Positions 3,904 through 62,600 of a DNA stretch of 64,000 nucleotides are shown one piece after another. A program made the position numbers and the translations under genes. Origin of the DNA: Bolinopsis microptera (Eukaryota > Ctenophora > Tentaculata > Lobata > Bolinopsidae); the NCBI RefSeq assembly GCF_026151205.1, contig NC_087072.1, positions 3,305,375 through 3,369,374 on the forward strand. The letters are read 5' to 3'. The notes under the pieces were generated by a model. That model did no database searches. It worked only from the letters and a program-made list of their open reading frames with translations, and was not told the origin of the DNA. How positions within the stretch are numbered: position 1 is the first letter of the stretch; the number at the start of each line of letters is the position of its first letter.

Positions 3904-5220
3904 GTTTTTAACTCATTTAGCTCTTATCAAAGTGCAACAAGAATTTGTTTGTTTTACTTTCATTCCATCCTATAGTCAAGCTCATACTCTGAGGTTTTTA
4001 TTTGCAGCGCTGAGACCGATAATGTGGCTATTTTCTCGCAGTATTTTACAGATTTCAAACATAAATTAATGGATTAAGTTTGTATGAAGTTGTTAGAACT
4101 ATACTAACGAAAACATGGTTTGGTAATTTAAACCTATTCAGTATCCAAGTAGGCTGAGCACTTACGGTAGATATCGAACAGTCTTTAGTAATAACTTTAC
4201 CCTTGTGTCTATCCTTCTGTCTACCCTTAGTGGTCGGGCTTTTTGGGTACTGATCAATTTTTTTTAAAACAATTGGACATGTGATTTATTTAATTTACAG
4301 CAGTGAAAGTTGTGTACCAATATTTTAAGTTGATTGTTTGATCGCTGTCAAATCTCATGACAAGCTTGGTTAAATTATTATGCTGGACCAATTTCTGCAT
4401 GGACAAAGAAATGGCTAGAATTTTAATTGATCATGCCCTATTCTCTGAAAAAAACCCTTTTATTCTACCATTACTACTACACATTTTAACCACACAATTC
4501 AATAACTAACAAACAAACTACTATAGCGATGTGAGCCATGTGAAGGATGCCATCTACCTCCTGCAGTAATGGTCAGGCATGAAAAGAAGAAACAACTTCT
4601 CCTGGCTAGATGCGACCAAATTTGTAAGTTATTTCAATAAACGCTGTCTGTAACCCTGATCCCGCCAGGAAATTGGCATAAATTCAAATTTTCTCCATAT
4701 AAATTTATGCCATTTTATAATGCCATATTGGTACTTTAGAAAAACCAATATTTTACAAAGTTTCAACCTTAGAGAACGATGTAAATTAATTTCAATATTT
4801 ATCTAGAAATTATTTTTAACGGAGAAATGACAGTTTTTGCCCTTTTCAATCGATTTCGACCTTAAACTTGATTTTCTAGCTTGAACACGTATAAGTTTTC
4901 TATAATATAAATTCAAGCTGATTGTACAGTAACTGCCCACACGCAACCCTTCAATAACTCACGTAATTCGTATCAAAATTGCACAAAAGTTTTAGAGCAT
5001 ATAGATATGGGTCAAACTTAAATTTCCTAAAGGTTTCGTAAAATTTCATTGATGAGAGAGGGTGTGGCACGCCATTCCCATTCAGCTAGGAACTCCAAAG
5101 TTTCTAGACACATTTGGTTTGATAATTGAAGTGCTTTCCCAAAATTTCAAGTTGGTTGTTCACAATTTAACCGAGTTATGACTCTTTTAAGATCTCGCAG
5201 ATACGTGATTTCGGCACTTA
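3904..5220. other. Intergenic, AT-rich, no gene seen
   Basis: No frame longer than about 60 codons with gene-like composition, no RNA gene and no clear repeat. AT-rich sequence only. Confidence 0.5.
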
Positions 5221-5239
5221 ATCAGTGATTTCGTCACCC

Positions 5240-5475
5240 ACCCACCCCCTTTGCGGTACTAACTGTTTTTTAGGATAATAATTAAGACACCCACCCTTTT
5301 TGCCGGCTTTTGCGGTACTAACTGTTGAGAAATCACGGTACTAACTGTGTCTTGGTATATAAAATAAGATACCCACCCATAAATTGCTTGGGGGGGGGGG
5401 GGGGGGGGGGTCCAACCCGATGTCCGATATGAGGGTTGATGAGGCCAAAATCGGAATCGGAAAAATCGAAAAATC
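5240..5475. repeat. GGTACTAACTGT repeats and 21-G tract with adjacent repeat
   Basis: The phrase GGTACTAACTGT occurs three times (near 5255, 5314, 5336), interspersed with CACCCACCC. It is followed by an uninterrupted G run at 5390-5410 that continues into TCCAACCCGAT and then ATGAGGGTTGATGAGG. The same ATGAGGGTTGATGAGG phrase recurs at 9,000, followed there by ATCGGGTTGGA and a C run, so the two G/C-tract junctions are in inverted orientation. They look like related element ends. Confidence 0.5.
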
Positions 5476-5984
5476 GGAAAATTGAGAAATTTACAGAATC
5501 GATCTCTAAATTCTAAAACCTCTCAGAAGTGATATAATTCAACCAGAACCCCTACATATAATGCTATATTGTTATGAGAAAACAAACCAATTGGACATTC
5601 CAATAGTATGTTTTATGTGTTTTTCCACTGCAGGGGCTAGTATGCTCACTACTAGTTGGAGTTGTCATGTACTCCCAGACCCGAGTGCTTTGGCCTCTTG
5701 ACGTGAGATCGATTGTTTCTGCTCATTAATTTTATCCCTGTTACTTGTTATTATGTATTAGTACAACACTAGGTACCGGGTTATATTTTGTGGTCCGGTC
5801 TTTAAACAAACCATAAAATCACTAGTACACTGCACCTTAAATGTATAGTCAAGTACATTTGTATCGTAACACATGCTTGGCTGGGGGATCATGTTTTGTG
5901 TCCGTTCGGTACCCTGTATTTTCAAAACGGACAAAAAGTAGGGCGGACAAAAACGGACAAAAACAGACAAAACATTTAGATGTC

Positions 5985-8405
5985 CTCCTCCTCCTCCTCT
6001 TAAGTCTTCCTCCTCCTGAGTCCTTCTCCTCCTCAGTCCTCTTCAGTCCTCTTCCTGACTCCTCGTCCTCGTCCTCCTCCTTCTCCTCAGTCCTCCTCAC
6101 CCTCCTCCTCTATCCCCTTCTCCTCCTCAGTCCTACTCCCAGTCCTCCTCCTTCTCCTTCTCCTTCTCAGTTCTCCTCCTCCTCATCCTCATTTCTCCTC
6201 CTCATCCTCCTCCTGATCCTCCTTCTCCTCCCCATCCGTCCTCCTCAGTCCTCCTCATAGTCGTCCTCCTCCTCCTGAGTCCTCCTCCTCATCCTCCTCC
6301 ACCTCCTGAGTCCTCCTCCTGATCCTCATCCTCCTCCTCAGTCATCCTCCTCTTCCTCCTCAGTCCTCCCCCAGTCCTCCTTCTCCTTCTCCTCCCCCTC
6401 ATCCTCCTCCTCCTTCTCCTCCTCATCAGTCCTCATCCTCTGTCCTCCTCATGATCGTCCTCGTCCTCATCCTCGTCCTTAGTCCTCGTCCTCCTTATCC
6501 TCCTCCTTAGTCCTCCCCCAGTCCTCCTCATCATCCTCCTCCTTCTCCTCCTCCTGATCCTCCTCCTCCTCCTTCTCCTCTTTCTTCTCCTCCTAATCAT
6601 TCCTCCTCCTCAGTCGTCCTCCTCCTCCTCGTCCTTAGTCCTCGTCCTCCTCAGTATTCCTCCTCAGACCTCATCAGTCCTCATCTTCATCATCCTCCTC
6701 AACAGTCCTCCTCCTCCTCCTTCTTCTCCTCAGTCTTCCTCCTCAGTCCTCCGCCTCCTTCTCCTTCTCATCAGTCCTCCTCCTCCTCAGCCTCCTCCTC
6801 CTCGTCCTCCTCCTTAGTCCTCATCCTCCTCGTCAGGTCTCCTCGTCAGTCCTTCTCCTCCTCCTCAGTCCTTCTCCTCATCGTCAGTCCTCCTCCTCCT
6901 CAGTCCTCCTCAGTCCTCCTCCTCCTTCTCCTACTCCTAAGTCCTCCTCCTTCTCCTCCTCAGTCTTCCTCCTCAGTCCTCCTCCTCCTTCTTCTTCTCA
7001 TCAGTCCTCCTCCTCCTCAGCCTCCTCCTCATCCTCCTCCTTAGTCCTCATCCTCCTCCTCCTCCTCAGTCCTCCTTCTCCTCCTTCTCCTCCTTCTCCT
7101 CCTTTTCCTCCTTCTCCTCCTACTCCTAAGTCCTCCTCCTCCTCAGTCCTCCCCCAGTCCTCCTCCTCATTAGTCCTCCCCAGTCCTCCTTCTCCTCCTC
7201 ATCATCAGTCCTCCTCCTGATCCTCATCATCCTCCTCAGTCCTACCCCAGTCCTCCTCTTCCTCAGTCCTCCCCAAGTCCTCCTCTTCCTCAGTCCTTCC
7301 CAGTCCTCCTTCTCCTCCTCCTCCTCCTCAGTCCTCCTCCTTAGTCCTCATCCTCCTCCTCCTCCTCAGTCCTCCTTCTCCTCCTTCTCCTCCTTCTCCT
7401 CCTTTTCCTCCTTCTCCTCCTACTCCTAAGTCCTCCTCCTCCTCAGTCCTCCCCCAGTCCTCCTCCTCATTAGTCCTCCCCAGTCCTCCTTCTCCTCCTC
7501 ATCATCAGTCCTCCTCCTGATCCTCATCATCCTCCTCAGTCCTACCCCAGTCCTCCTCTTCCTCAGTCCTCCCCAAGTCCTCCTCTTCCTCAGTCCTTCC
7601 CAGTCCTCCTTCTCCTCCTCCTCTCCTCCTCAGTCCTCCCCAAGTCCTCCTCTTCCTCAGTCCTCCCCAAGTCCTCCTCTTCCTCAGTCCTCCTCCCCCA
7701 GTCCTCCTTCTCCTTCTCCTCATCCTCAGTCCTCCTCTTCAGTCCTCCTCGTCCTTAGTCCTCGCGTCCTCTTAGTCCTCCTCCTCCTCCTCCCCGTCCT
7801 CAGTCCTCCTCCTCCTCCTCCTCCTCCTCCTCCTGAGTCCTCCTCCTCTGGAGTCCTCCTCATCCTCAGTCCTCCTCCTCATCCTCAGTCCTCCTCCTCA
7901 GTCCTCCTCGTCCTTAGTCCTCCCCCAGTCCTCCTTTTCCTCATCCTCAGTCCTCCTCCTCAGTCCTCGTTCTTCTCCTTTTTAACAGTCCTCCTCCTCA
8001 GTCTTCCTCCTCGTCCTCGCTCTCGTCCTCCTCCCTCTCCTCCTTCTCGTCTTCCTCCACAACAATCCTGCTCCTCTTCTTCAGTTCTCCCTCTCCTCTT
8101 CAGTCCTCCTCCTCCTCAGTCCTCCTCGGTCCTCCTCTTTCTCCTCAGTCTTCCTCCTTCTCCTCCTCCTCCTCAGTTCTCATCCTCATCCTCCTCCTCC
8201 TTCTTCTCTTCCTTCTCCTCCTCCTCAGTCCTCCTCCTCGTCCTTAGTCCTCGTCCTCATCCTCATCGTCCTTGGCCTTAGTCCTCGTCCTTAGTCCTCG
8301 TCCTCATCCTCCTAGTCCTCGTCCTGGTCCTCCTCAGTCTTCCTCCTCTGTCCTCCTCAGACCTCAGTCCTCCTTCTCCTCAGTCCTCCTACTCCTCCTC
8401 ATCAG
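5985..8405. repeat. TCC-rich polypyrimidine satellite, 2.4 kb
   Basis: Almost pure pyrimidine on the + strand, built from CTCCTC triplets punctuated by CAGTCCTCCTC every 20-60 bases. It is therefore a degenerate higher-order array rather than a simple trinucleotide run. All open frames here are Ser/Leu/Pro or Arg/Glu/Gly compositional artefacts. Just before it (5,925-5,970) CGGACAAAA occurs four times. Such mirror-rich polypyrimidine can adopt triplex (H-DNA) form. Confidence 0.9.
7031..7622. repeat. Near-perfect 300-bp tandem duplication within the TCC satellite
   Basis: Bases about 7,031-7,322 and 7,331-7,622 match essentially base for base at an offset of exactly 300, including all irregular interruptions (for example TACTCCTAAG and ATTAGTCCTCCCC). 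This is a recent segmental duplication or an assembly duplication. Confidence 0.85.
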
Positions 8406-8889
8406 TTAACACAATTTATTGTTACTAAAATGTTTTTAAACACATTTGAGTCTGTAACATATTGACATGTTACTGTTACTGACTCGAGAATATTTTTGTT
8501 TAACAGAGTTTTACTCTCCAGTACTATGGAAAAGTTGTTACATGATAAATAAAGATTTGATAAATAAAGTGATTTTCATCCCTTTTAATGTTATCAAAAA
8601 TTGTGTAGACTATTCTTTGTATCTAACTGAGGATTGGAAGTTTGAGAAAGAGACCATGGTCATTAACCGTGCTACCCATTTCTGCAGATAGCCTGTTACA
8701 AATTGTGGAGACAATTTAAATCAAAAGTTACTAAAGCGTTCGCTATTTGTTACGATTGTTATTACCAACCGTACCTCTTTCAATTGTGGACCGGGGTGGA
8801 TGTTTCTGTCAAACAGAGTTGATACGACAGTGTGTTGTTTTTTTCGGACGAAACGATTCTTGTTTGGAACAAGATACCATTTTGGGGTT

Positions 8890-13340
<4,451 letters not shown>

Positions 13341-26696: not shown

Positions 26697-26872
26697 TTAC
26701 ATGGTTATGACATGGTTATGACATGGTTATGACATGGTTATGACATGGTTATGACATGGTTATGACATGGTTATGACATGGTTATGACATGGTTATGACA
26801 TGGTTATGACATGGTTATGACATGGTTATGACATGGTTATGACATGGTTATGACATGGTTATGACATGGTTA
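26697..26872. repeat. 11-bp satellite (ACATGGTTATG), left block
   Basis: About 15 nearly perfect tandem copies of ACATGGTTATG. The complementary orientation (CATAACCATGT) forms blocks at 28,296-28,390, 28,912-29,006 and 29,530-29,803. The block is mirror-placed in the two arms of the large inverted repeat. Confidence 0.95.
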
Positions 26873-27460
26873 CAACCAAAACTCCTTCAGACCAATTTTG
26901 AACCATTATGAGCACTTTCAGGATACAATTCATTTCCGTTCATTTCCGTTCATTCTATGAACCTGGGTCATTTTGTGCGACTTTCGATGGTCTTTAGGCC
27001 TAGCTTATGACACTATCTATCATATAAAACCGAATTGGGGGTTCCCAGCCCTTACGTAATAAGTCTCAAATTGAAATGACACACATGCGCCACCTATTGA
27101 TTTACACGATAAACCTGCTAGCGCATGTGTGTCAAAAAAAAATAATGATACACATGCGCTTCCTAGGTAGCGCATGTGTGTCAAAAAAAATAATGATACA
27201 CATGCGCTAGCAGGTTTATCATGTAAATCAATAGGTGGCGCATGTGTGTCATTTCAATATGAGACTTATAACGTAAGGGCTGGGAACCCCCAATTCGGTT
27301 TTCTATGATAGATAGTGTCATAAGCTAGGCCTAGAGGTCATCGAAAGTCGCACAAAATGACCCAGGTTCAGAGAATGAACGGAAATGAACGGAAATGAAT
27401 TGTATCCCAAAATTGCTCATAATGGTTCAAAATTGGTCTGAAGAGTTTGGTTGGTCCTAG
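26873..27460. repeat. Palindrome 1 of the central array (about 590 bp)
   Basis: A near-perfect hairpin. It reads inward from both ends as CCAAAACTCCTTCAGACC, then ATTCATTTCCGTTCATTTCC, GGCCTAGCTTATGACACT, GGGGGTTCCCAGCCCTTACG and GACACACATGCGCCACC. The centre is made of GCATGTGTGTCA phrases around CCTAGG. There is no coding potential. A related palindrome occupies 27,715-28,296. The 250 bp between the two contain a smaller inverted repeat (GTGCTGGGAAG / CTTCCCAGCGC). Confidence 0.85.
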
Positions 27461-28295
27461 GACCACCCTAGCAAATTTTGGGAATTACTATTTAGATTTT
27501 TGGTACCATTTCGAAGACATGAGGACATCGTAGTATTCACTGTATTCGAGTGCTGGGAAGCATTAATTCGGTTTTCTTCCCAGCGCTCAAATACAGCTTA
27601 TACATTATACTTCGATGTCCTGGGTCCCCATGGCCATATATAATGTATAATGAGGCTATTATTATAGCATTATGGATCCCTTCGTCCCCAAAATTTGCTG
27701 GAGTGGTCGTAGGACCAACCAAAACTCCTTCAGACCAATTTTGAACCATTATGAGCACTTTCAGGATACAATTCATTTCCGTTCATTTCCGTTCATTCTA
27801 TGAACCTGGGTCATTTTGTGCGACTTTCGATGGTCTTTAGGCCTAGCTTATGACACTATCTATCATAGAAAACCGAATTGGGGGTTCCCAGCCCTTACGT
27901 AATAAGTCTCAAATTGAAATGACACACATGCGCCACCTATTGATTTACATGATAAACCTGCTAGCGCATGTGTATCATTATTTTTTTTGACACACATGCG
28001 CTACCTAGGAAGCGCATGTGTATCATTATTTTTTTTGACACACATGCGCTAGCAGGTTTATCGTGTAAATCAATAGGTGGCGCATGTGTGTCATTTCAAT
28101 TTGAGACTTATTACGTAAGGGCTGGGAACCCCCAATTCGGTTTTATATGATAGATAGTGTCATAAGCTAGGCCTAAAGACCATCGAAAGTCGCACAAAAT
28201 GACCCAGGTTCATAGAATGAACGGAAATGAACGGAAATGAATTGTATCCTGAAAGTGCTCATAATGGTTCAAAATTGGTCTGAAGGAGTTTTGGT

Positions 28296-29530
28296 TGTAA
28301 CCATGTCATAACCATGTCATAACCATGTCATAACCATGTCATAACCATGTCATAACCATGTCATAACCATGTCATAACCATGTCATAACCAATTTTGAAC
28401 CATTATGAGCAATTTTGGGATACAATTCATTTCCGTTCATTTCTGTTCATTTCCGTTCATTCTATGAACCTGGGTCATTTTGTGCGACTTTCGATGACCT
28501 CTAGGCCTAGCTTATGACACTATCTATCATAGAAAACCGAATTGGGGGTTCCCAGCCCTTACGTATTAAGTCTCAAATTTAAATGACACACATGCGCCAC
28601 CTATTGATTTACATGATAAACCTGCTAGCGCATGTCTGTAACTTTTGTTTTTGACACACATGCGCTAGCAGGTTTATCATGTAAATCAATAGGTGGTGCA
28701 TGTGTGTCATTTCAATTTGAGACTTATTACGTAAGGGCTGGGAACCCCCAATTCGGTTTTATATGATAGATAGTGTCATAAGCTAGGCCTAAAGACCATC
28801 GAAAGTCGCACAAAATGACCCAGGTTCATAGAATGAACGGAAATGAACGGAAATGAATTGTATCCTGAAAGTGCTCATAATGGTTCAAAATTGGTCTGAA
28901 GGAGTTTTGGTTGTAACCATGTCATAACCATGTCATAACCATGTCATAACCATGTCATAACCATGTCATAACCATGTCATAACCATGTCATAACCATGTC
29001 ATAACCAATTTTGAACCATTATGAGCAATTTTGGGATACAATTCATTTCCGTTCATTTCTGTTCATTTCCGTTCATTCTATGAACCTGGGTCATTTTGTG
29101 CGACTTTCGATGACCTCTAGGCCTAGCTTATGACACTATCTATCATAGAAAACCGAATTGGGGGTTCCCAGCCCTTACGTATTAAGTCTCAAATTTAAAT
29201 GACACACATGCGCCACCTATTGATTTACATGATAAACCTGCTAGCGCATGTCTGTCACTTTTGTTTTTGACACACATGCGCTAGCAGGTTTATCATGTAA
29301 ATCAATAGGTGGCGCATGTGTGTCATTTCAATTTGAGATTTATTACGTAAGGGCTGGGAACCCCCAATTCGGTTTTCTATGATAGATAGTGTCATAAGCT
29401 AGGCCTAGAGGTCATCGTAAGTCGCACAAAATGACCCAGGTTCATAGAATGAACGGAAATGAACGGAAATGAATTGTATCCTGAAAGTGGTCATAATGGT
29501 TAAAAATTGGTCTGAAGGAGTTTTGGTTGT
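28296..29530. repeat. Two tandem satellite-palindrome units (about 617 bp period)
   Basis: 28,296-28,911 and 28,912-29,530 are near-identical direct copies, each a block of CATAACCATGT repeats followed by a palindrome of about 520 bp from the same family as palindrome 1. Their shared private variant TTCATTTCTGTTCATTTCC, absent from palindromes 1 and 2, shows that one copy arose from the other. Confidence 0.85.
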
Positions 29531-29803
29531 AACCATGTCATAACCATGTCATAACCATGTCATAACCATGTCATAACCATGTCATAACCATGTCATAACA
29601 ATGTCATAACCATGTCATAACCATGTCATAACCATGTTATAACCATGTCATAACCATGTCATAACAATATCATAACCATGTCATAACCATGTCATAACCA
29701 TGTCATAACCATGTCATAACCATGTCATAACCATGTCATAACCAAGTCATAACCATGTCATAACCATGTCATAACCATGTCATAACCATGTCATAACCAT
29801 GTA
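29530..29803. repeat. 11-bp satellite (CATAACCATGT), right block
   Basis: About 25 tandem copies, slightly more diverged (AACAATGTCAT, AACCAAGTCAT variants) than the left block. It ends at ACCATGTAAGAAAAAGGCGT, the exact complement of where the left block begins. Confidence 0.95.
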
Positions 29804-37421: not shown

Positions 37422-38897
37422 TCCCTACGAGTGTAGCAGTAGAGGTTGTTATTTACCGGGATCTAGAGGACTAGTCTGAGTCAGGTACTATATACTGAGT
37501 TGGTTGGTTCAAAATGAAACCCGCTCAATTAGTTTGACGTTTAGGAAATTAAAGTCAGAAAAGGATTTTTAGTAAAACTGGAACTGAATCCAAGATCATG
37601 CGTATGTTACAAATCGGATAAATTAGACATATTTACAATCGGAGCCAAGGACGGCTATGGAGGTGAAAGGAGTGCAGTGTCATGTGATTCGTGTCTCTCA
37701 AATTTGATTGGTTGGTGCTAAGGTAGTGTTAGGAGTAGGACTGTGAAAGGTCAAGGTTGTAACTTAAACATTAAAAGGATTGTGTGAATGGATTCGTGGG
37801 GAAGTGCTAGTAGATGGTGTGAAGTCAAGGTGCTGGGAAATGTGGAAAATTCTTTGTGGAATTAGTTTGAATTTAGTTGGAGCCGTCCGGGAATAAAACA
37901 TGAAATATAAGTATTTTAATAATCAATAAAGTATATATACTGTACACGAGGAGAGACTTCGTCAAGTTTAACCTCAATAACATCACTAAAGTTCCACAAT
38001 TCTATATGATACTTTTGGAAAACTAAACATTTCACTCAGTTACAGTTTTCAGCTACAGTTTTCAAATCGAGATCAAATTGAGGTTAAACATTAAGGGTTA
38101 AAAAACCACAGATTTTCATCCCATTCACCTCAACAGATAAAGAATCACCCAAACCACTTTCTAATAGTAACCGATCCAACAGAAAGTCTCAGACATCGTC
38201 CATGAGGATTTAGATTTAAGAAAGAATATAGATAAATATACTACAGAATAGCCAATCTTCAGAGGAGTCTCCTATTATTAGAGGAACCAACCCCAAGTTA
38301 AACTGCCAATCTAATTCTTCACTTCCACTACCACACCACTGTTCATACCACATGGCACATTGGGGGAAGAAGTTACAGATCCGAATTAAAATAAGATAAT
38401 CATCTCACTCATTCCTAGCGACAACAAACGTTTTATTAGTAAATACATTCACCAGGTCGTAATCAGCAGATACGGTTAATTAAAACGCCTTACAGCATAG
38501 AAATAACGTCTTATTAGAAGAGACATTCACCTGGTTGTATTCAGCCAAACCGATTAATTAAGGGCATTAAACAAAACGGAAATTTGTTTAGGGTCATGTC
38601 GTGTTTAAATGACAGTTATGGGTTAAGGTTATAGCCCTGAAGCTACTCTTATAAAACCCTAACCATAATCAATAACTCTAACCCTCAGGGAAGCGTTTTC
38701 ATCCAACTCCAAGTTCAGGGAGTTGATTCGGATTTCGGAATAATCACTTTCATACCCATAGGGCCTTTTTACAAGATATAAGAACATTTGGGCAAGCCCA
38801 GATTTTTAATGGAAGTGGATTTTGAGGAGCTCTCACGACCTGATGTTTTATTCATTCCTGCTGTAAGACTAAGTAATACTGAACGGCACCAGCCTCT

Positions 38898-39643
<746 letters not shown>

Positions 39644-44667: not shown

Positions 44668-47600
44668 TCACTGAGTGATGACACTGCGCTCGTTGCTGCG
44701 AGTGGGGGAGATACCAGGAAGGACCTTGTGCGGAGAGACAAGGTTAGGGTTATCAGAGAGGGGGACGTTGATGTGGCGCCCACTGTGAACAGTGGTGGTC
44801 AGCATCTTGAGCAAGGTGTTGTGTTCCACTGTGTCCCTGATACTGGGGGAGTACGAGAGTTAAAAATAAGATTGAAACTCCGGGTGAATCCTGGCTGTTA
44901 GAACCGGACAAACTTATCCCAAACCAAATTATACCTCAAGCTACAAAGGTTCGGGTTCCCTTCTAATAATGAGACTTGTGTCCAGTATAATTATTAATGT
45001 AGCTGCAGATCTTTCTAGAATTTTACTTTTAGACCTAATCGCTTTCAACAATCACGAGACGTAACATCACTTGTGTATAAGATGCATTCTACAGTCTCAT
45101 TGTCTGGCACACTTCGTCAGAATTGCTGAAACATTGGTACACGCGGCGAATAATAGAAAGTATAAATTGATAGATATTCTCCATTTCTTACCCTGGGGGA
45201 TCCTGTTTTGATTTCTCAGCCAGAGCACTTTGCCTTTGTTTTGATATTTGAAGAGTCTCGTAGTCGCTTGTTCTGCAGAAAATACGCAGTTAAAAGCAGG
45301 AAATAGCCCGGGCTTACCCACACTTTGAGATATAATCGATATCTAAGCGATTGTTTTGAGGTTAGCTGGTCAACTTTCTGGCCATTTATGTGAATCAGAT
45401 TAGCTGTACATTGTGACGTTACAAAAATTAGAGAGATAATGAAAGAGGCGATCCCAGTCGGGCGTTCCTTAATCAACCCGGAACTGTCGAAATGTTTGAA
45501 TAGGTGGTCACGTGATATCATGCTTTTATTCACGTGGTATGACGTCACATCATTCATGCCGAAGTATTAAGCTATTATTAAGTTATTTTACGTTGCAGTG
45601 ATTTAAATGACCCAATATTAAGTATAGACCAGACAGTATTCCGGAGAATTGTCAATAAACTTGAGAGATAAATGCCACGATTCCAGCCTCTTGGTCGAGT
45701 GTTATTACGCATTTAAAGTGCAAAGTACTGGCTAGGGCCAATGGAGAAAGTGCTGGAAGTTTCTAAAAGTTTGTAACCACTGACCAGGCGGTAGTCAGAC
45801 TCTTTTGTGAGGTACTTTGCAACTGTTCTACGTCGAAAGTTCAGAATAAAGCATATTCATAGTACAACCTGTCTTAATAGATAGACTTTGAGGATCGAAA
45901 CCAACATTCAACAACCCAGTAAAAAGCTTGGAAATAGAAAACAATATTTAAGTCTAGTACTCTTATAATGACCGTTTAAGGTATTAGAGTTAAAGAGTAC
46001 CACCCTACTACACATTCGAAGTTAGCGATATAAAATACCAACTTTAAAACGTTCCACTTCTAGATAATAAGCACGCTCCAACTACGGAAAATGACTGTGA
46101 AGTTGTATCTCTGATCGATCCATCCGGTATTATACAATATACAGTATACATACGATTCTAGAACACTTGAATTCTCACTTAAAATTTAAACTCAATCTTC
46201 ACATTGGCGATGGTGGCCCGTGGCATCCTAAAAGTATAATCTTCTGGCTGGCTGATCCCAGACACGGTCTGTAGCCATCGATTGTTCTCACAGTTATTCT
46301 CCTAAGTTCTAAACTACACCACGAGGAGGGAGGAGAGATTCTCTTATAACAGTTCACTTATCACTCCCCCAGGGTCACGTTATTATACCTGAATTCATTC
46401 CAGATGACACTCATTATCCCATTACAGCAATGTGAAAAGACAAGTGGACAGGTGGAGCAGGTGATGTCCGTGAGAAAGTGGTGAAATTTCCTGAAAACTG
46501 TGGCCAGCCGGAGTAGACGGCACACTAATCACAGCCTGCATTATTATACGTTATGATATTACCATATAAATTGCACTGCATAATTATCTTGCAAGCTCAT
46601 GAATTGGGAGGCGAGAAAAGTGATTACCCGGCTAATCAGATCCAGGGCGGTTATTAGTCGTTGTTATGGAAAAATTAGGCCATGTGTGTGTGTGTGTGTG
46701 GGGCGTCAATTTAAATATCCGTTAGCTTATAACGATTGCAGATTAAGTCAGAGTTAATTTGGCCACGGAATGATTAATAAATATAACTTTATCTTAAATT
46801 AAAAGAAAGGTCTGACAATTTGGTTGGAGCTTTACCTACCATGTGAAATGTTTGATCAGTACTTAACTTTTACATTTGGATAACGGCGACTTCTAGAATT
46901 GTAGACTAAATGAGTAAAAGGTAACTAACAAGCAATTTAAAGGTCACCAATAGGTTACTGACAGGCTTTCAACAGGTGAATTAACAGCTCTCAAAAGGTC
47001 ACTTAATGGTTGTATGTCACTAACCGTGACCAACATCCAACAAATCATTAATTATGGTTACCACTTAACAGACAACGAACGAACCAACATGGCGACCCTA
47101 GCAAACTAGGGACGAGATGCCGAAACCCTTTTCAAGCGGTATAGCCGCACGGTCCTTTTGGTACAGATTTCCCTGCAGCACAGTCGGGACCCAACCCCAG
47201 GTATATGCACTTTTGTCATTTCACCAGCTCTAGTAACGGTTATATAAACAGTTGACGAGTAAAGTAATACTTGTTGATGAAGTTGATCCTGGATGCGTTC
47301 TGTTGTTCCCACTGTTTGAAGTTGAACTTGATCTGTTCATAACAAGCTTGTTCATCTTCCAACTCAACTCGGCTCTCCCTGTCCAGTATCTCCATCTGAA
47401 AACACTGTTTTATAAATCAGGAAATACATTTCTCTCTAAGTGATTATTGAACCAAGATAAGGTTATATCATAGAGATTGTGGATCAAGATACAATTCTTC
47501 AATATATAGGTTTTGTGGACAACGATTTTGTCTCAAAATTCCCTTACCCATCAAAACATGGGTTTGATTAAAAGAAGTGGCATGTATAGTACTGATGTAC

Positions 47601-50600
47601 GGTCAATGGTCATATGGATAAATCTCCACCGGTCAAAAGTATCATACTTATTAAAATCAGTAAAGTGGTCTGTTAACGATATTTGATATGAGCTTAACAA
47701 ATTCTGATGCTTTGATTTCCATTTCATCACTTACAGACCTCATAATTCTGAACTTTTAGTTCTGCATCAATTCTCCTAATAGGCTGGTACTAGGAGTCCG
47801 ATATAATCGAATAAAGGGAATGTTGGCTCTGAAACTTCTTAAGAATGTATTCAGTAATATGTGGGCTATGAAGGGTTGTGGTTTGTAAGTTAAGTGACGA
47901 GTACCCTATATATAATACCCTAGTAGGTAGGTACGATAATACATGGTACCTTGTAGTAATTAAAAGAAACTCCCTAGACGTCAGAATGATAGACTAAACA
48001 TGGTCGAGCTATCAACAGTTATCCTGATCATTCCACTTTATTTCATGTTGCTAACGGCTAATGTCACGTGAGTAGTTGTGCATGCTCGGCTGCCTCTACT
48101 TCTCCTTATCATCTAATTGAACCGCGAATAATAAAAGTAATTGTCGCCACAATATCACCGGATACATAGTTGTGCCAAAGTCCTCTCTCTCTCACCTTCA
48201 CTCTCATCAGACTATAAATTTTCGGTTTTACAGTGCACTTGTGAAGATTTGGTAACATTTACAGTAGGATGCAAGGAATTAACAAGATTTATATTTTTCT
48301 GGAAGAAAAGGTAAGCTCTCCCACATGTGAGGGCCCGCTAATCTTGTACGGGAAAAAGAAGACAATTTAAACACTATTTTTGCGCTGCAAGATTCCCTCT
48401 CTGTGTGGGAGAGTAGAGTTGAGGGCTGGAGTTTAACTTTTCCTGGTAAATGTTTGCTGGTGCCACTCAGTCCGTAAACCATTGCAACATGACAGTTTAT
48501 TGCTGTAGGGTTCTGCCCATTTTAAAAGTACAGTCCGCGGCAGCTGCTCACTTTTTAGCCAGATACTTTTGTTAGGGTCAGTGGCGGCAAATTTGTTATA
48601 TTCAGTGCTGTTTGTTAGTAGAAATATGTTTAATTAGCAAATTCCTGTGCCGTTTGAGAACCCAACTCCGTTAATGGTAGACTCCCCGCCCAATTGTATC
48701 ACTTGATGCTGTTTTAAAAGCCTCACTTTTTGCGGCTATGGTAGTCTGTTTCTCACTTGATACTGTTTTAAAAGCCTCACTTTTTGCGGCTATGGTAGTC
48801 TGTTTCTCACTTGATACTGTTTTAAAAGCCTCACTTTTTGCGGCTATGGTAGTCTGTTTCTCACCTGATGCCGTTCTAAAAGCCTCACTTTTTTCGGCTA
48901 TGGTAGTCTGTTTCTCACTTGATAATGATACTGTTTTAAAAGCCTCACTTTTTGCGGCTATGGTAGTCTGTTTCTCACTTGATGCTGTTTTAAAAGCCTC
49001 ACTTTTTGCGGCAATGGTAGTCTGTTTCTCACTTGATACTGTTTTAAAAGCCTCACTTTTTGCGGCTATGGTAGACTGTTTCTCACTTGATGCCGTTTTA
49101 AAAGCTTCACTTTTGGCGGCTATGGTAGTCTGTTTCTCACCTGATGCCGTTTAACAGCTTCACTTTTGGCGGCTATGGTAGTCTGTTTCGCACCTGATGC
49201 CGTTTAACAGCTTCACTTTTGGCGGCTATGGTAGTCTGTTTCTCACCTGATGCCGTTTAACAGCTTCACTTTTGGCGGCTATGGTAGTCTGTTTCTCACC
49301 TGATGCCGTTTAACAGCTTCACTTTTGGCGGCTATGGTAGTCTGTTTCTCACCTGATGCCGTTTAACAGCTTCACCTTTGGCGGCTATGGTAGTCTGTTT
49401 CTCACCTGATGCCGTTAAACAGCTTCACTTTTGGCGGCTATGGTAGTCTGTTTCTCACCTGATGCCGTTTAACAGCTTCACTTTTGGCGGCTATGGTAGT
49501 CTGTTTCTCACCTGATGCCGTTTAACAGCTTCACTTTTGGCGGCTATGGTAGTCTGTTTCTCACCTGATGCCGTTTAACAGCTTCACTTTTGGCGGCTAT
49601 GGTAGTCTGTTTCTCACCTGATGCCGTTTAACAGCTTCACTTTTGGCGGCTATGATAGTCTGTTTCTTACCTGATGCCGTTTAACAGCTTCACTTTTGGC
49701 GGCTATGATAGTCTGTATCTCTCTGAGAGCCTCCCTGTCACTCTTGATAGGGGTGATGTTATCCAGCATCAGTTCTGCAATTATCTCCTCCCAAACCTCT
49801 CCAACTTTGAAATCCAAGTAGTTCTCAATCAGAGTCAGTGTGATCTGGAGTAGGGTGTTTTATTAGATAACATGCTGGGTAAGGTGTGATAAGAATTAGA
49901 TAACATCCTGTGTAAGATGTGATAAGAATTGCTCCCAGAAATTTTAGCGTATGTTAATATCTACCCTCCCCAATTATTTCCTTTGTGCTCGATCATTAAC
50001 TACAGGAAACCTGCACAAAGTATATGTATTTAAACACTGAGCGGTAAAATGCTTTACAGTTTATTATTGTATTTACAGTCTGCATTTATTACAGCCGACA
50101 TGAAGAGAACTTGTATCTGGGAATGAGAGGTTTGCTAAATCACGTACTTTGATCTTAATGCAGACAGCAATCAGGCAATCTTAGTCAACAAATGTAATTT
50201 TAGTCATTATCGTAACTAATGCAATGGTAAATGGTTATTATTGTAATGAATGGTTATCATGTTTAAAGTTGTTCTAACCTGATCCTTGGCAGAAACGGGA
50301 GGTAGATTATCAAACCCAATCCGGAAAAGCATAGCGTAAATCTTTGCTCGCATGTTATCAGCAACATCCAGTATAGCCAGAGTAGGAGTGGAGCTGAGGG
50401 CGTGCGCGCTAACGTCAGTCATCAGCTGTTCTGCTCCTTGTAGAGGCGTGGCTGGGTCTGTGAAGGAGTGGAAGGTTAGGGGCTGGGTCTGTGAAGGGGT
50501 GAAAGGTTAGGGGCTGGGTATGTGAAGGGGTGGAAGGTTAGGGGCTGGGTCTGTGAAGGGGTGGAAGGTTAGGGGCTGGGTCTGTGAAGGGGATGGAAGG

Positions 50601-53600
50601 TTAGGGGCTGGGTCTGTGAAGGAGATGGAAGGTTAGGGGCTGGGTCTGTGAAGGAGATGGAAGGTTAGGGGCTGGGTCTGTGAAGGGGTGGAAGGTTAGG
50701 GGCTGGGTCTGTGAAGGGGTGAAAGGTTAGGGGCTGGGTCTGTGAAGGGGTGGAAGGTTAGGGGCTGGGTCTGTGAAGGGGTGGAAGGTTAGGGGCTGGG
50801 TCTGTGAACGGGTGGAAGGTTAGGGGCTGGGTCTGTGAAGGGGTGAAAGGTTAGGGGCTGGGTCTGTGAAGGAGTGGAAGGTTAGGGGCTGGGTCTGTGA
50901 AGGGGTGGAAGGTTAGGGGCTGGGTCTGTGAAGGGGTGGAAGGTTAGGGGCTGGGTCTGTGAAGGGGTGGAAGGTTAGGGGCTGGGTCTGTAAAGGGGTG
51001 GAAGGTTAGGGGCTGGGTCTGTGAACGGGTGGAAAGTTAGGGGCTGGGTCTGTGAAGGGGTGAAAGGTTAGGGGCTGGGTCTGTGAAGGGGTGGAAGGTT
51101 AGGGGCTGGGTCTGTGAAGGGGTGGAAGGTTAGGGGCTGGGTCTGTGAAGGGGTGGAAGGTTAGGGGCTGGGTCTGTGAAGGGGTGGAAGGTTAGGGGCT
51201 GGGTCTGTGAAGGGGTGGAAGGTTAGGGGCATGGTCTGTGAAGGGGTGAAAGGTTAGGGGCTGGGTCTGTAAAGGGGTGGAAGGTTAGGGGCTGGGTCTG
51301 TGTATGGGTGGAAGGTTAGGGGCTGGGTCTGTGAAGGGGTGGAAGGTTAGGGGCTGGGTCTGTGAAGGGATGAAAGGTTAGGGGCTGGGTCTGTAAAGGG
51401 GTGGAAGGTTAGGGGCTGGGTCTGTGTATGGGTGGAAGGTTAGGGGCTGGGACTGTGAAGGGTTGGAAGGTTAGGGGCTGGGTCTGTGAAGGGGTGGAAG
51501 GTTAGGGGCTGGGGCTGTGAAGGAGTGGAAGGTTAGGGACTGGGTCTGTAAAGGGGTGGAAGGTTAGGGGCTGGGTCTGTGAAGGGGTGGAAGGTTAGGG
51601 TCTGTGAAGGGGTGGAAGGTTAGGGGCTGAGTCTGTGAAGGAGTGGAAGGTTAGGGGCTGGGTCTGTGAAGGGCGAAAGGTTAGGGGCTGGGTCTGTGAA
51701 GGGGTGGAAGGCTAGGGGCTGGGTCTGTGAAGGGGTGGAAGGTTAGGGGCTGGGTCTGTGAAGGGGTGGAAGGTTAGGGGCTGGGTCTGTGAAGGGGTGA
51801 AAGGTTAGGGGCTGGGTCTGTGAAGGGGTGGAAGGTTAGGGGCTGGGTCTGTGAAGGGGTGGAAGGTTAGGGGCTGGGTCTGTGAAGGGGTGGAAGGTTA
51901 GGGGCTGAGTCTGTGAAGGGGTGGAAGGTTAGGGGCTGGGTCTGTGAAGGGCGAAAGGTTAGGGGCTGTGAAGGGGTGGAAGGTTAGGGGCTGGGTCTGT
52001 GAAGGGGTGGAAGGTTAGGGGCTGGGTCTGTGAAGGGGTGGAAGGTTAGGGGCTGGGTCTGTGAAGGGGTGGAAGGTTAGGGCTGGGTCTGTGAAGGGGT
52101 AAACAGCGACGCAGCTGAGAGGCTAATTCCCCTGATAAATTATCGTAATTAACTCAAACTGCGTACCACACAGGGCTTGGAGTACTGGAAAAGATTACAA
52201 ATTTCCTGAAATCAAATTTAAAGTATTTAACTTTAAGTTCAATGTTTAAAAAAACTGGTCTGGATTATGTAGAACTGATTAACATTAATATAAACCCACT
52301 TTGCTGTAATAAAAGTTTATTAATTTCAATAATCGCTCCCTTTTCTCCAATAAAAGTTTTAAAACTCTCCATCATTAAATGAGTCCCGTCTAGCGAATTG
52401 TTACAATGTATGAGTCATACCTCTTATAATTATTATCTTAAGAAGGTCCTGTTCGATGTCTTTATCTTTGAGTCATATTATAGTGGTTCACGTCTTGTCT
52501 TGATATTGTTGTTAGTTACAACTCTGTTTTAAAACTGCCTTTAAAAATTAATTCACGACTTTTTTACCCGACAAATGGTTTGTTAAAACCTGAAGCTACT
52601 CGTGTAAAAATGAAATGGTATTAAGAGGCTATAATTTCCATCATTGCCTAGTTGTAAGTAATTTATCTTATTTGAGCATGCTTACGGTCAACAGATCCAC
52701 AAACTTGCTTAAAACGTGAGTTTATAATCCTATTACTTATCACTTAACTTTACCTTATATGTTTATCATTTTCTTCCCAAGCACCACCCAAAATACCGAC
52801 AGTTATCGATGAATTTAAATCAAATAAAGTGGCCATTGGCCAATCCATCCCGACGATTTCCCAATAAACTGATAGCCGCTTATAGGAACGTATATCATAC
52901 GTCTCATTGTAATATTCACACGGTATATTTGTCCTGGGTGCATGACAAAGTACGTAAGTTTTATGATAAAAATGGTGTTAATTCTTGCAGAAGTTTCCGT
53001 GCAGTAGTAATTTACCTAACAATAGGCCAATCGATAAGACTGATAATTCGATTATCAATTATCAGTAAATTTATCTTTCGAAAATGCAAGGCTTGGCTGT
53101 TATAACGTTCATGATTGGCCATAATATGACCTGCAGAATTAGGAACGTTCTAATAATGGGTTCATTGTAAGCGTCGGAGCATTCCGAGTATTATGCCCCA
53201 TCTAAATTCTCGATCGCGTGGTTTCTCTAGAAAACTAATCTTCAGCCCTGGGTGGTCTTCACATGTCACGTGAGATGTCGTAAAAACGTGAAAACCTAAA
53301 TTATTGAATTTTTTGATAATTAAGTAAAGGAGCCGATTGCCTAATTGCAGGCGACTACAGTCTTTTCCTTCTAGCTTTTTACGCTCCAGCGTTCACTTTT
53401 GTGAGCCTACATTATTTTCGAAGCTCTGATAAGAGCCTCTTTGAACTTGGGGACAATCACTTACATGCATTCAACCCCGTACGCTTAGGACATACCAACA
53501 GATCATAAAATCTGTACCGTACACAAAACTTAAACATAAACTACTGGTAGTGTGTCCTCAAAAAATCCCTAGATATACACCTGGCCTGGGTGAGACCTGC

Positions 53601-56600
53601 TTTGCAATTGCTAATAAGAAATTCAACGATTTGTGCTCCACAAGTCACCGCAGAGCCAAGGGATCTTCATTAATTGGAATGATTCAGTTCTGTAATACTT
53701 TGAGGTCTTTAGAATCTCATTCATCAATCATCACCAACTATAACTTCTTTTCAAGGCTGTTCAGATTTTTCACAGAAAAATCCATTGTACAAAAGGTAAG
53801 CTGTGTACTGCGTGCCGTTGTAAAAGCATTAATATTTTTAATAGTTTTAAAAACATGTTTTTCTGTAGAATTATACCTTATGGGGATATCAACCCGGGTT
53901 AAGATTAGTTTCTAAGATTAGTTTCTTCTACCCGGTTGCTGAATTAGGTAAAATATTGCGACAGTCGATACAGCAGCAAAGAAATATGAGTGACGAACGT
54001 ACACTGCATAAAACTAATAGCTCATTTCGTAATCTCGTGATTAAACAAATGCTGTAGACTGCCAGCGTCATGGCAATTAAATAATTTTGGATCAGAGTAA
54101 ACATAATTTTTAACTCTCCGCGAATTTCAAAATGTTGCTAAATTGTGGCTTTTGTACCTTAAGGTTCAGTTTTAAAGGTACGTACCGTACAGCAATTTTT
54201 AAAGGTACGTACTGTACGTACTTCTCTTCTTAGATTAGTTTGAAATGGTTGCCTTTGGCGCTTTTGATGGTCGTTTTGTATAATACACTCGGCTTCGCCA
54301 GCCTTCATATCATAATTGCTGCCTTTAAAAACTGGTATCTAACCTGCCATGATATGGTTCCTATCTCTCTTGACGCCCATTGCATGTTCCTCCGCCCTCC
54401 ACAGCTGGATCAGAAGGGACACTGCAGTTTTCTGGCCTGTTCCCCTCCACGTGACCACGTGCGGAAGTGCACGTGCATCTTCTGTGAGGTCAAGGAGCGC
54501 GCCCAGGACCAAGTTCTGCATACTTGGGGGACACTTCTCCAGCAGATCAAGAAGGATGGGGATACCTCCACGCTCTAGAAATAGGTCCTGGAAAACAGTT
54601 ATTGGAAGTAGGCGATTTTGTGTACAAATACTTAAATATGTAGTACTCAAAATTAATTGATGTTGTTTGGTACCTTAATACTGACTATAGGATCTGTTAC
54701 CCTTTATAAAATTAAAAAAGCTTTTCATTCTAACCTGGTTCATGAAGGAAACGCAGCACCAGATAGCATTGACAGAGCTGAGGAGCAGTTTGTGATACCC
54801 CAGCCCTGAGGAAAACTTCTCACTGTCGAGACTGAGAAAGTTGAGCAGGAGGTCGACCCCCTCGTCTCCAAACGTCGCCTGGTACACAAGATATGTTTTA
54901 ACTCTGGAGCACAGACACATGGCACTGCTAGGCTCAGTGCGTGGCACAGCCTGGCTCCCTGGCCAGGGATAGACTTATCCAGGGTACTACCGACTAGATG
55001 TACGAGGAAATGTTGGCCCGTGGGTCGTGGGATCAGAATATTTGTGAAGCGATATTGACCAATCACAAAGCAGTATTCATATCACGGTACCTGTTCTCAT
55101 CCAATCAAAAGGGGCTAGAGGGAAAGTTAAAATAGGAGCTATAACCTACCTTTCTGTGCGAGTCTGTCTCACAGACAACTGAGAGAATGAGCAGAGTGTT
55201 TGAGAGGATACTTAACTCTATCGGCACCTCAGTGTCTTTGTACATCTTCAATACCACTGGAAGATCAGGGGATTATTCAAGATCAAAGCCACAGTAAATC
55301 AGAGAAAACCTAGAACACAATAATTTCGTGATCCGACAGGCAGGTACTCCCGGGAATGCTCCAGAATGCTCCAAATCTGATGAATGGTCGCACAGTTAAC
55401 GCGTGTGGATGGAGCCTCACCTAGTAGCGACCCTATGAGTCCTTGATCGCACAGATCTTGTATGACGTTTTCGTTTCCCGTTCGCACCACCGCCAGAAGG
55501 ACTCTGATAGTGTATCGGAGCTGAGCTCGCCGGGTTTGGTAGCCCCCCTCTCCGAAGAAGCTGTTTCCGTGTCCTCCGTAATCACCTTCAGGGTAACAAA
55601 CTGGGGTGTGAGAATTAGAATCTGCAAATTAGGGTAATGTATGGGTAAAATCAAGTGGGGTGAGAGAATAAGGATGGTGTTTATAAAGGTACTATTTCTT
55701 GAGAAATGTAATGTTTGTGATCCACAAAAAGCGAAAACTGTGGAGATATATTATTCCTTTGGGGTTATAATTGCAAGAAACTGACCTTAAAAAGAGGGCG
55801 TTATTAGTTATTAATCAACTTATTGCCCTTATCATAACAATGAACATTGTATTATGTTATGTCATGTCTTATCGTACGTCGACTCTAGACGTTCTTCTGC
55901 CGCAGACCGTAAAAAACTTATCATATTTCATTCTTGGGAAATAATCCCGATACAAAAAAAAATGTCGCCCAGTTTGCTAATTTTAAAACTTTGGTGCCAG
56001 CCCTCAGTAACTGAACACAAATAATTACGATCGTTTTTAAAACTAATAGATGTAACAATTTCGGATATAGTTCACGGGGAATCATGGCCTGATATAGTGA
56101 TCGAGTGGCTTCAGGACTGACTACTAAAACCGATTAGGACCTCTCAAATTAACGGTACCCCATAGGTTATTTAATTACCAGAATTACCTGCTTGATATAT
56201 TTATTTCATAATTTAGTTAATTGTCTCGAATCGCTTTGCTTTTGATCCTGGAATTTACTGGTTCCCAGGATTTGGTGGTAGTTGAAATTTAAGCCACTAA
56301 ATTTTGGCGTTGTTTGGAATGTTTCCAGTTTGTTTGCTCTATATTCTAGAAGGTGTCTGAGAAGGGGACTTGGTGGCCAGAACTACCAGTGCCATTTTAC
56401 ACGTCAACCAAACGTTATTAAAATTCTGGTCTGGTTTGAGAGTAGCGTAGGTTAGTGGTTATTAATTTTCTTAAGATAAGGTATTAGGATAGGATCAGGT
56501 TAAATTTTCTTTAAACATTTTAAAGAAAATGTTAAATTTATGGCTGCATTTATGGGATGCACTATTTGTCCAACAAAATAAAAACCTTAGAAATTCACCT

Positions 56601-59600: not shown

Positions 59601-62600
59601 TAGTAACCGTATAGTAACCGTATAGTAACATATAGTAACCATATAGTAACCGTATAGTAACCGTATAGTAACCGTATAGTAACTATATAGTAACCGTTTA
59701 GTGACCTGTGTCGGTGGGTGTGGTGAGTGAGTTGGTGATGTGGCGAGACTTACAGTCCAGACACGCCCACTCCAGTAACATTATAAGTCTTGTGTTGCCG
59801 TGTCCTCTCATGTATTCCTCCAGACACAGGGGCGACAGGGTTTCTAGACTCGACAGTGCCTGTAAATAGTAAGTTTTAGTTACTTCCATCGTACTGGAGT
59901 CAGTTTCACGCAGTGCACAATTTTCCGTTTTACGGTACATAATTTGTGGGTTTGAAGCTGGGTAATTCACACAACGTCCCCACCACACGATTGCCTTGGT
60001 ATTAGATCCTGTGATCTGGTGATGATTGTTTGACGCGGAGAGAGCCCCTGACAATAAACCATTATCTTACCACCGAACCCGGTGTCATGTCACCCCATCA
60101 ACACCTATCAAGGCTTCAGACGAATTACTGGTGTTTAAAATCTACCCTGTTGTTACCAAGCCAGGAATTCGTGACTCGTTGTCTCAGGTCTAAGCTGCGC
60201 TCTGTGTAGTCGGTGTGTTTGTCGGATATGTCGCTGTAGGGTGGGGAGGGAGAGAGCTTGCAGTGTAATTGTCGTGTAGATGTCGTCCTGTGTGACATGT
60301 CCTACGACACCTGCCCTCTCTCTCCCTCTCTCCGCAGCTGTGATCCATGACATTTACCATTGTTCCCTCTCACGCAGAAGGGGGTTTCTTACATTTATGC
60401 AAATAAAAACTGATGAATAAGACGCGTTACTGGGGTTTCCCTACTTAGTTTCCCGTAATGGTACGTTGTAAAGCTGTCTTCTTGACACAAACAGTTCTTT
60501 TTGCTTTGTAGTTTGTACTAATTAGGTGTCCTCTGCTACTGAAGTAGGTCGTACTGTAGTGCTAGCTCCCTACATCAGATCACTTAAACACTTCATTAAC
60601 TTCACCAGGCGTAACTTTGTAGTCGGTACTTCGAGTAATCGATCATTCAGTTGTTTGATCTTTCGATGAGTCGTTAAGTTTCTTTTATTTTATCCCTTGA
60701 TGGTCACACATACTCTACTTTTGTCCGATCTTTTGACAAGTCAGTCCTAAACGAGTCAACCTTTGACTTGTAGGCCGTTACATTAACCTATCAATTTCAG
60801 CTGTGTAATAAAGTTTGTAATCTGTCAAACTTTGACCTAGAATTCTTTTAATAATTATGTTACTTTTAACTTATTATCATTAATATTAACAATATTATTT
60901 TTCCCACCATTTTATCTCATTTCTATCAGTCTTCAGTTGTTGTGAGGATTTATCTTGATCGTAATCTAACAAATTTGCAAATAAGGCTTAATTTGGTGGA
61001 TTTCTCGGAAAAAGTAAGTTTCCTCAACTTCCTTGTCTTAAGATTATTTTTAAAAACCAGGAGTATGATTTTATTTTGTTTGATTAAATCTGATTTTCTG
61101 GCACACTAAAATTCTTCTTCAACATTCTATACCGATCTATTACCAGGAATTACATAACTGTATTTCTCATTAATATGTGTTTGTGGTGTATTTTAAAGTG
61201 TACTTTAAAGTGATTGTTGATCATGAGTATGTGGTCCTTCTCGTGGTTTTTACGAGCAACAAGTGTTGTGGTTTAAGAAGAACTCTAGTATTCTCTGAGT
61301 AAATATTCTCGTGTTGAGGTTACAGTGCATGGTGAGGACAGAAAGTTATCCAGCACTTGTCTACTGATCGAATGAATGGGAGCATTAACAACACAATATT
61401 TTTATTAGCAAGTATTAACTACAGAATACTTAGCGTATAGTGCAATTAAGGCCAGGGAGAGGGAGAGGGGGGGGGGGGGGGGACATACATTTTTCAGTTT
61501 TCACATAAGCTTCTGGAGACGAAGCTGCTTTTTTGAAATGGTTAACCTCATAATTCGTGAACCGAGTCGAATAAAAGAAGTCGCTATATCACTTTTCTAG
61601 ATACTATTCCAAAGAACCACTGTACCAAACTTCAAGATTAGGAAGTAGCTGGTTTTCTCAACTAAGAAACCGAAAGGTTATAAAAGTTATCTAGCTGTTT
61701 AAAGTCCCAGTTTTACTAGTAATTACATTTACAGGTAAACCCCAAACTTTGGCGCGCGAAATCTCAGGAACGTAAAGTCAGATTTCGATCCGGCTTTTTC
61801 TAATTTTTCGTCTCCAGCAGCTCTATCACAAATTATGTGAAAACTGAACAATTTATTTTTACCCCCACCCCCCCCATCTGGCCTTAACTAACACTAGATT
61901 TTATTAAGCATTTTACTAAGTACTATGAAGACTAGAGTACTGACTACAATTCCATTAACTATTGTCCTGTATTAGGGAGTATGACAGGTCACATAATTGG
62001 GGTTTACAACTTGACTAGGGTTCAATTGGACGGTAAAGAAAAAACGGAATTATTGCAACTAGACTCGGTTACACGTGCATCGTGCCCCATTTCAATCGCA
62101 TCTTCATTGGATCCTCTCATGATTACTGAGACTGAATCTCAGCTTCATAGTTTTCTTGGTGCATCCTTAAAATTACACATTCTTAGGGCATTCTAGTACA
62201 GAATAACGCCTTACCAAGAACGCCTTATTACGAAGTCTATAGTACTGCAAGTATAACACGTATCCCTAACACAACTTGACATCACATATCAGATTACTAA
62301 ATTCTATGGTGACAACCATGGAGCTACCAGTTTTGAAGTTGTAGCAAAACATTTGAAGTTGTAGCAATGTTTGAAGAGTAAACTGTATTTCGGCAGATCT
62401 GACCTGAAGTTGAAGTTCTTCATACTGAGCACTCGTCCATTCCACACTGCACACACTGTCGTTTGGCTTTACGTAATCGAACAGCGCCGTCAGCAGTCCC
62501 ACGTCAATCATCACCTGACAGCGGGGACAGCGTTAACATATTTGGGCATTACCATATTTGGGCATTACCATATTTAGGTATTTCCATATTTTTTTAACAG

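Follow-up and report, generated by a model that had tools for sequence, protein, structure and literature searches.

A minisatellite of splice donors across an exon-intron boundary of CFAP69 in the ctenophore Bolinopsis microptera, probably one of a genome-wide class

Minisatellite-like tandem duplications across an exon-intron boundary, on its 5' or its 3' side, have been described in amphioxus as mirages, with the globins BflGb6 and BflGb9, Adh3, TnC and PGBD5 among the cases treated. In these accounts many copies keep AG/GT signals, and regular splicing is reported to be undisturbed (PMC3087553, PMC3902484). Where the units are detailed, they number 6 or 3 in BflGb6, at 150-160 bp each; BflGb9 has a single duplicate of 157 bp, and the Adh3 units measure 10-72 bp (PMC3087553). 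Among the internal tandem repeats of human segmental duplications, minisatellites at such boundaries are described as able to create new splice patterns and introns (PMC2812944). In the part of the matching open-licence papers surveyed, we found no report of such arrays in ctenophores or as a genome-wide class.

The array reported here lies in CFAP69 and resembles the amphioxus mirages in several respects. Its unit spans the exon-intron boundary, with about 49 exon nucleotides and 4 intron nucleotides; its copies carry splice signals, 18 donors in all; the true exon copy, found at one end of the array, preserves the reading frame; and the copies (u01-u18, counted from the exon) display concerted evolution with less homogenised edges, u02-u10 being homogeneous and the distal units divergent. 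Unlike the amphioxus genes, CFAP69 combines its 18 donors with 53 acceptors, and another gene holds at least 141 donors. About half of the human repeats lie in coding exons, with an average of four 30-bp copies in the data summarised, whereas the CFAP69 copies are intronic and would stop the frame (PMC2812944). As in the segment described from a potato RdRp gene, the duplication crosses an exon-intron boundary; unlike that case, as far as it is set out, no new intron or exon is seen in CFAP69 and the copies stay within the old intron (PMC4974935). Intron gain by tandem duplication was not found at this junction, where the two flanking exons, L and M, are ungapped against CFAP69 with no extra coding piece. 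The CeRep25B element of C. elegans, an intronic minisatellite near multiple splicing decisions, is linked to splicing like the CFAP69 array, but it is presented as a minisatellite holding regulatory motifs, whereas the CFAP69 array is a copied splice junction (PMC4039745). The CFAP69 array is known in kind, as a mirage; what is unexpected is the copy numbers, the involvement of two adjacent exons and the likely genome-wide reach. A first-pass annotation of this DNA had noticed the donor array and had missed the paired array of 53 acceptors at the preceding exon, the similar arrays across the genome and the published precedent.

The window analysed is a stretch of 64,000 nucleotides (C1:3305375-3369374), and the genome searched comprises 264.65 Mb in 232 contigs. 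Minus-strand exons of the window match CFAP69: one exon matches Pfam PF21049 at 6.4e-28, CFA69_ARM_rpt scores above the Pfam cut-off of 25.8 bits in five of six open frames tested (97.8, 51.1, 63.8, 29.8 and 37.4), and the joined exons J-O align to CFAP69 of PDB 9ijj at 5.6e-58. All on the minus strand, these are exon J (54344..54587, family match and PDB alignment), exon K (50279..50457, family match), exon L (49671..49844, 174 nt, phase 0 at its end), which is the source of the repeat unit, exon M (47271..47395), the true downstream partner of exon L, exon N (45192..45272, PDB alignment) and the last exon O with the stop (44668..44842, PDB alignment). Exon L (ITLTLIENYLDFKVGEVW...) aligns to 9ijj without a gap across its junction to exon M. 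The exon beside the array, whose place in a gene the first-pass annotation had left to be checked, is thus coding and inside CFAP69. Short 16-bp and 33-bp repeats also lie at window positions 62533-62591 and 49862-49930; they stop 17-18 nt short of the acceptors of two CFAP69 exons, E and L.

Exon L ends in CATCAG/GTAAGAAAC (the slash marks the exon-intron boundary), and 53/54-bp copies of the boundary unit continue down to position 48703. TRF delimits the array at 48699-49721 with a period of 53, 19.0 copies and 95% matches. It contains 18 in-register donors of the form GT[GA][AC]GA from 49670 to 48756, 11 of which read CAG/GTRAGA, in line with the roughly 18 donor copies annotated at first. 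The description of the unit as exon end plus donor also holds: u03 is identical to the last 45 nt of exon L at 44 of 45 positions, while the best ungapped match elsewhere in the window reaches 25/45. Counted from 49670, the donors are spaced by 53 bp ten times and then by 54, 54, 54, 60, 54, 54 and 54 bp, and the units comprise ten of 53 bp followed by eight longer ones (54 bp, one of 60). By donor register and unit alignment, a proximal block of ten 53-bp units (u01-u10, 49141..49670, minus strand) is followed by the 54-bp unit u11 (49087..49140, minus strand), a hybrid with a proximal-type 5' half and a distal-type 3' half, and by a distal block (u12-u18, 48703..49086, minus strand) of 54-bp units, one of 60, with mostly CAA/GTGAGA. 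The far end of the array reads CATCAA/GTGATACAATTGGG; its last donor, CAA/GTGATA (48697..48702, minus strand), runs into the unique intron sequence TACAATTGGG and may be a remnant of the parental donor.

The sequence classes are less uniform than the first-pass annotation had it. CAG/GTGAGA, assigned to the proximal ten copies, is present in nine of the first 11 donors, donor 1 being CAG/GTAAGA and the tenth CAG/GTGCGA, and one distal donor, at 48864, is CAG/GTGAGA too. The distal 54-bp units were said to carry TATCAA/GTGAGA; four of the seven units u12-u18 do end in TATCAA, but two end in GCATCAA and one in CAG, and one unit is 60 bp long. The greater homogeneity of the proximal units, in contrast, is borne out by mean pairwise mismatches of 0.67 among u02-u10, 2.29 among u12-u18 and 6.17 between the groups. 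Mean mismatches to exon L are 3.33 for u02-u10 and 8.86 for u12-u18, and exon L shares ACTATC with u01 (vs ACTACC). Over the whole array, neighbouring units are more alike than in 9,999 of 10,000 shuffles, but within the distal block no such resemblance exceeds that of the shuffles (9,282 of 10,000 as low or lower). The alignment of units, proposed earlier as a way to recover the order of expansion, therefore yields two layers and array-wide ordering of neighbours. The layers are real, and two expansion phases are one reading of them; since u11 is a hybrid and u15 retains the proximal CGGCATCAG end, continuous unequal exchange, in which the units near the exon were recently homogenised, would fit the layering as well.

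A second array precedes exon K, one intron upstream. At 50458..52100 (minus strand), 31-bp units supply 52 decoy [CT]ACAG acceptors in addition to the productive one, and TRF reports 53.6 copies at 50450-52100. Most units end in CTTCACAG and hold a branch-point-like CTAAC and a pyrimidine tract. Among the 53 acceptors, only the one adjoining the exon keeps the full frame, the 52 others all leading to a stop. The units of the two arrays are unrelated, and genome searches with each reported matches only here among the best-scoring candidates (nine of nine within the donor array for its distal units). A dispersed satellite or mobile element was set aside because the best-scoring matches of both the distal 53/54-bp units and the 31-bp units lay only inside their own arrays.

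The junction between exons L and M (SEAVKRHQ/MEILDRES) falls inside an ungapped stretch in the alignments to two PDB chains of CFAP69/FAP69, from which we infer that donor 1 (CAG/GTAAGA, 49665..49670, minus strand) is the productive donor; its use is predicted from frame and homology. It is the sole frame-keeping donor among the 18. Reading beyond it gives VRNRLS and then a stop, as first annotated, and the 17 decoy donors all meet an identical stop seven codons on, before three junctions and 238-1,099 nt upstream of the last one. A stop well upstream of the last exon junction is the usual setting for nonsense-mediated decay. The earlier expectation that distal donors would truncate the protein or trigger decay is consistent with these positions.

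What distinguishes donor 1 is not its strength. RF00003 gave 10 matches to U1 genes, and the one read starts ATACTTACCTG. In the calculated U1 duplexes, donor 1 stands at -11.0 kcal/mol; of the ten nearest decoys, nine stand at -11.1 and the remaining one at -6.8, while six of the seven last donors are at -4.6. A contrast between a strong donor 1 and weak decoys is ruled out for the proximal block by this equal pairing, and donor 1 is set apart by position, the near decoys being no weaker. Recursive splicing at the AG/GT of each unit was also considered and rejected, as no pyrimidine tract is seen by eye before CATCAG/GT.

A rule of this kind has been described for human genes. In the analysis concerned, when donors are near-equal and the exon is recognised by exon definition, the upstream donor, nearest across the exon, is preferred, as confirmed in five minigenes with identical donors, and exon definition is placed at flanking introns above 200-250 nt; over all events in the human data presented, the downstream donor wins about 60% of the time and the stronger site 86% (PMC9225289). 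Because its flanking introns measure 434 and 2,275 nt, exon L is likely recognised by exon definition. Among the near-equal donors, donor 1 would then win as the donor at the shortest distance across the exon from the acceptor, and stray use of a distal donor would add a stop and feed nonsense-mediated decay. The proximity rule rests on human data, and intron definition would predict the opposite choice, which would be harmful here.

We consider it likely that the donor array is a mirage, that is, a minisatellite that arose when a segment spanning the 3' boundary of CFAP69 exon L was duplicated in tandem; the array is most likely a tolerated by-product of duplication and probably one of a genome-wide class of minisatellites across exon-intron boundaries. 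The present sequence of this one genome allows the initial duplication to be tentatively reconstructed. The exon reads AGAGAGATACAGACTATC, and the segment from GATACAG to CATCAG plus GTGA is exactly 53 bp, the proximal period, with 2/53 differences from the observed unit. The array may have been born from a break at AGAGA^GATACAG in the exon and another at CAG/GTGA^TACA in the intron, with GA shared and 53 bp duplicated; the ancestral empty site would read about CATCAG/GTGATACAATTGG. Joining GTGA to GATACAG would have turned the exon-proximal donor from GTGATA into GTGAGA (+5T to +5G), a change that moves the U1 duplex energy from -8.2 to -11.1 kcal/mol. The +5G would have given the exon-proximal copy an advantage from the outset, a possible reason for the survival of the allele. 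Unequal exchange could then have raised the copies to about 19 and homogenised those nearest the exon.

It is also conceivable, if unlikely, that the array serves as a switch of splicing or expression, with distal donors used in some cells or states and array length tuning the yield of CFAP69 through nonsense-mediated decay. Such a switch would suit the nine near decoys whose pairing with U1 matches that of donor 1, the placement of every decoy's stop for decay, and the 52 decoy acceptors with the same consequence one intron upstream in the same gene. However, units of 53 or 31 bp change the reading frame and would be expected to bring in stops even in the absence of selection, and the amphioxus cases, as their splicing is published, splice normally (PMC3087553). 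We give a smaller chance to a benefit of extra U1 sites for CFAP69, whether by holding U1 along the intron against premature cleavage or by recruiting the spliceosome to the exon. The intron does offer 17 further donors, ten of them at -11.1 kcal/mol, and donor motifs are enriched in arrays genome-wide, but junction duplication alone predicts that enrichment, donor 1 is itself strong, and the weakness of six of the seven last donors (-4.6) fits poorly with such a role.

The distal block could be thought an old in-frame coding repeat of 18-residue units that was once part of the exon, since the codon phase of the exon stays open across the block for 159 codons, even through the 6-bp insertion. 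The opposite strand is open as well, for 157 codons, and any open 54-bp unit is open throughout; moreover, the exon frame hits a stop in the first 53-bp unit, and between L and M neither of the two PDB homologues contains residues of this sort. On these grounds we rejected the coding repeat, which we regard as highly improbable. An assembly artefact, in which a short polymorphic array was collapsed or expanded, is likewise highly improbable: tandem arrays are hard to assemble and the copy number may still be off, but ordered unit differences, matched by 1 in 10,000 shuffles, are hardly artefactual.

Pattern counts across the genome point to further arrays of the same kind as this mirage. Triples of AGGTRAG with gaps of 30-60 number 8,780 (4050+4730), against 1,778 (659+1119) for the reversed pattern, while single motifs number 66,851 (32881+33970) against 54,971 (27322+27649), so that the ratio is 1.22 for singles and 4.9 for triples. 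For CAGGTRAGT with gaps of 20-50, the triples are 290+491 vs 6+4 reversed and the singles 2114+2256 vs 1282+1294. The acceptor motif TTTCAG behaves likewise, with triples of 3821+3110 vs 653+825 and singles of 143934+143480 vs 79828+80454 (ratio 4.7 for triples and 1.79 for singles). Chance triples were ruled out, the single counts predicting roughly 0.5 AGGTRAG triples and roughly 40 TTTCAG triples per strand where thousands are observed. These counts are matches rather than arrays and are dominated by a few long arrays, C3:5823835 making up most of the listed CAGGTRAGT triples. In the window and the next 20 kb, the two CFAP69 arrays account for 2 of the 15 TRF arrays with a period of at least 15 and no fewer than 2.4 copies, a fraction biased by the choice of window.

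Fifteen other donor arrays were inspected, five among the AGGTRAG triples listed and ten among the CAGGTRAGT triples listed. A protein family supports five of them and a long frame one; four have frames (117-138 nt) too short to be informative, four show no exon at their edge and one (L085) is undecided. As a yardstick, an upstream open frame of at least 117 nt occurs at 27% of the window's 457 AG/GT sites and at 33% of random positions, so that a short open frame at the edge of an array gives little support for an exon. In four of the five AGGTRAG arrays the first donor coincides with the end of an open frame (216, 528, 138 and 150 nt); in the fifth, L050, the first motif match lies inside the exon and the array copies the apparent true exon end, GAG/GTTATT by eye. 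The next exon of L050, a gene we take to be ABHD17, matches Hydrolase_4 at 2.2e-5, slightly below the cut-off. L048, with 44 donors, has a Sushi match of 0.0038, below the Pfam cut-off, and one above it (1.2e-4) in the next exon; L049, with 5 donors, matches a dynein heavy chain (PDB, 4e-10). An array of at least 141 donors in 38-bp units lies at the end of an exon of nucleolar GTP-binding protein 2 (L052, C1:1100500-1110499, 4431-10000; PDB, 1.7e-10), and L051 matched no family. L094 follows a WD40 exon whose match to WD40_MABP1-WDR62 (1.3e-4, below the model cut-off) reaches the last residue before the donor, and L092 has a 516-nt open frame up to its first donor, with no family match. L086, L091 and L093, with frames of 117-129 nt, matched no family, and L087-L090 show no exon at the upstream edge. 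In L049 (C1:880500-890499), the open frame of the dynein exon holds a tandem coding duplication just upstream of the donors. The units of L086 and L092 are intron-only and start at an apparent donor, which is copied without exon sequence.

On the acceptor side, the TTTCAG triples listed fall in 16 places, of which the ten repetitive-looking ones were inspected. Downstream of the last acceptor, the open frame extends for 672 nt in L082 and 261 nt in L078; those of L075 (186 nt) and L076 (168 nt) do not exceed chance expectation, as roughly 15% of random positions reach 186, and that of L084 (522 nt) is itself repetitive. Five of the ten had no open-frame signal downstream, and a Pfam scan of L075, L078 and L082 gave no match. 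At L081 (C1:2293600-2294800) and at C1:2294645-2295738, 30-bp units carry both an acceptor, GGGATTTCAG, and a donor, AACAG/GTAATT, so that the unit looks like an 11-nt micro-exon.

Choice among equal donors is usually tested with few copies in minigenes. CFAP69 offers a natural series of 18 donors, with 53 acceptors one intron upstream, in which the frame marks the required winner. Should the class prove as broad as the counts imply, mirages would be no amphioxus oddity, and intron change would commonly have duplicated splice junctions as its raw material. It is tempting to go further and suppose that in this genome minisatellites arise preferentially at splice junctions, in hundreds of genes and beside donors as well as acceptors. 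Many introns would then contain concatemers of their own splice sites, concealed by exon definition, and each array would amount to a natural experiment in competition among many sites and a lasting reservoir for new introns and exons. We hold this broader idea to be doubtful, because a short open frame beside an array says little about the presence of an exon.

The window contains other simple and dispersed repeats. A CT dinucleotide tract of 748 bp occupies 38894-39641, and runs of C, A and G lie between 9060 and 9999. At 26699-29802, 11-bp repeats of ACATGGTTATG and its complement, with interleaved 10-bp repeats, recur every ~600-850 bp in a mobile-element-like arrangement.
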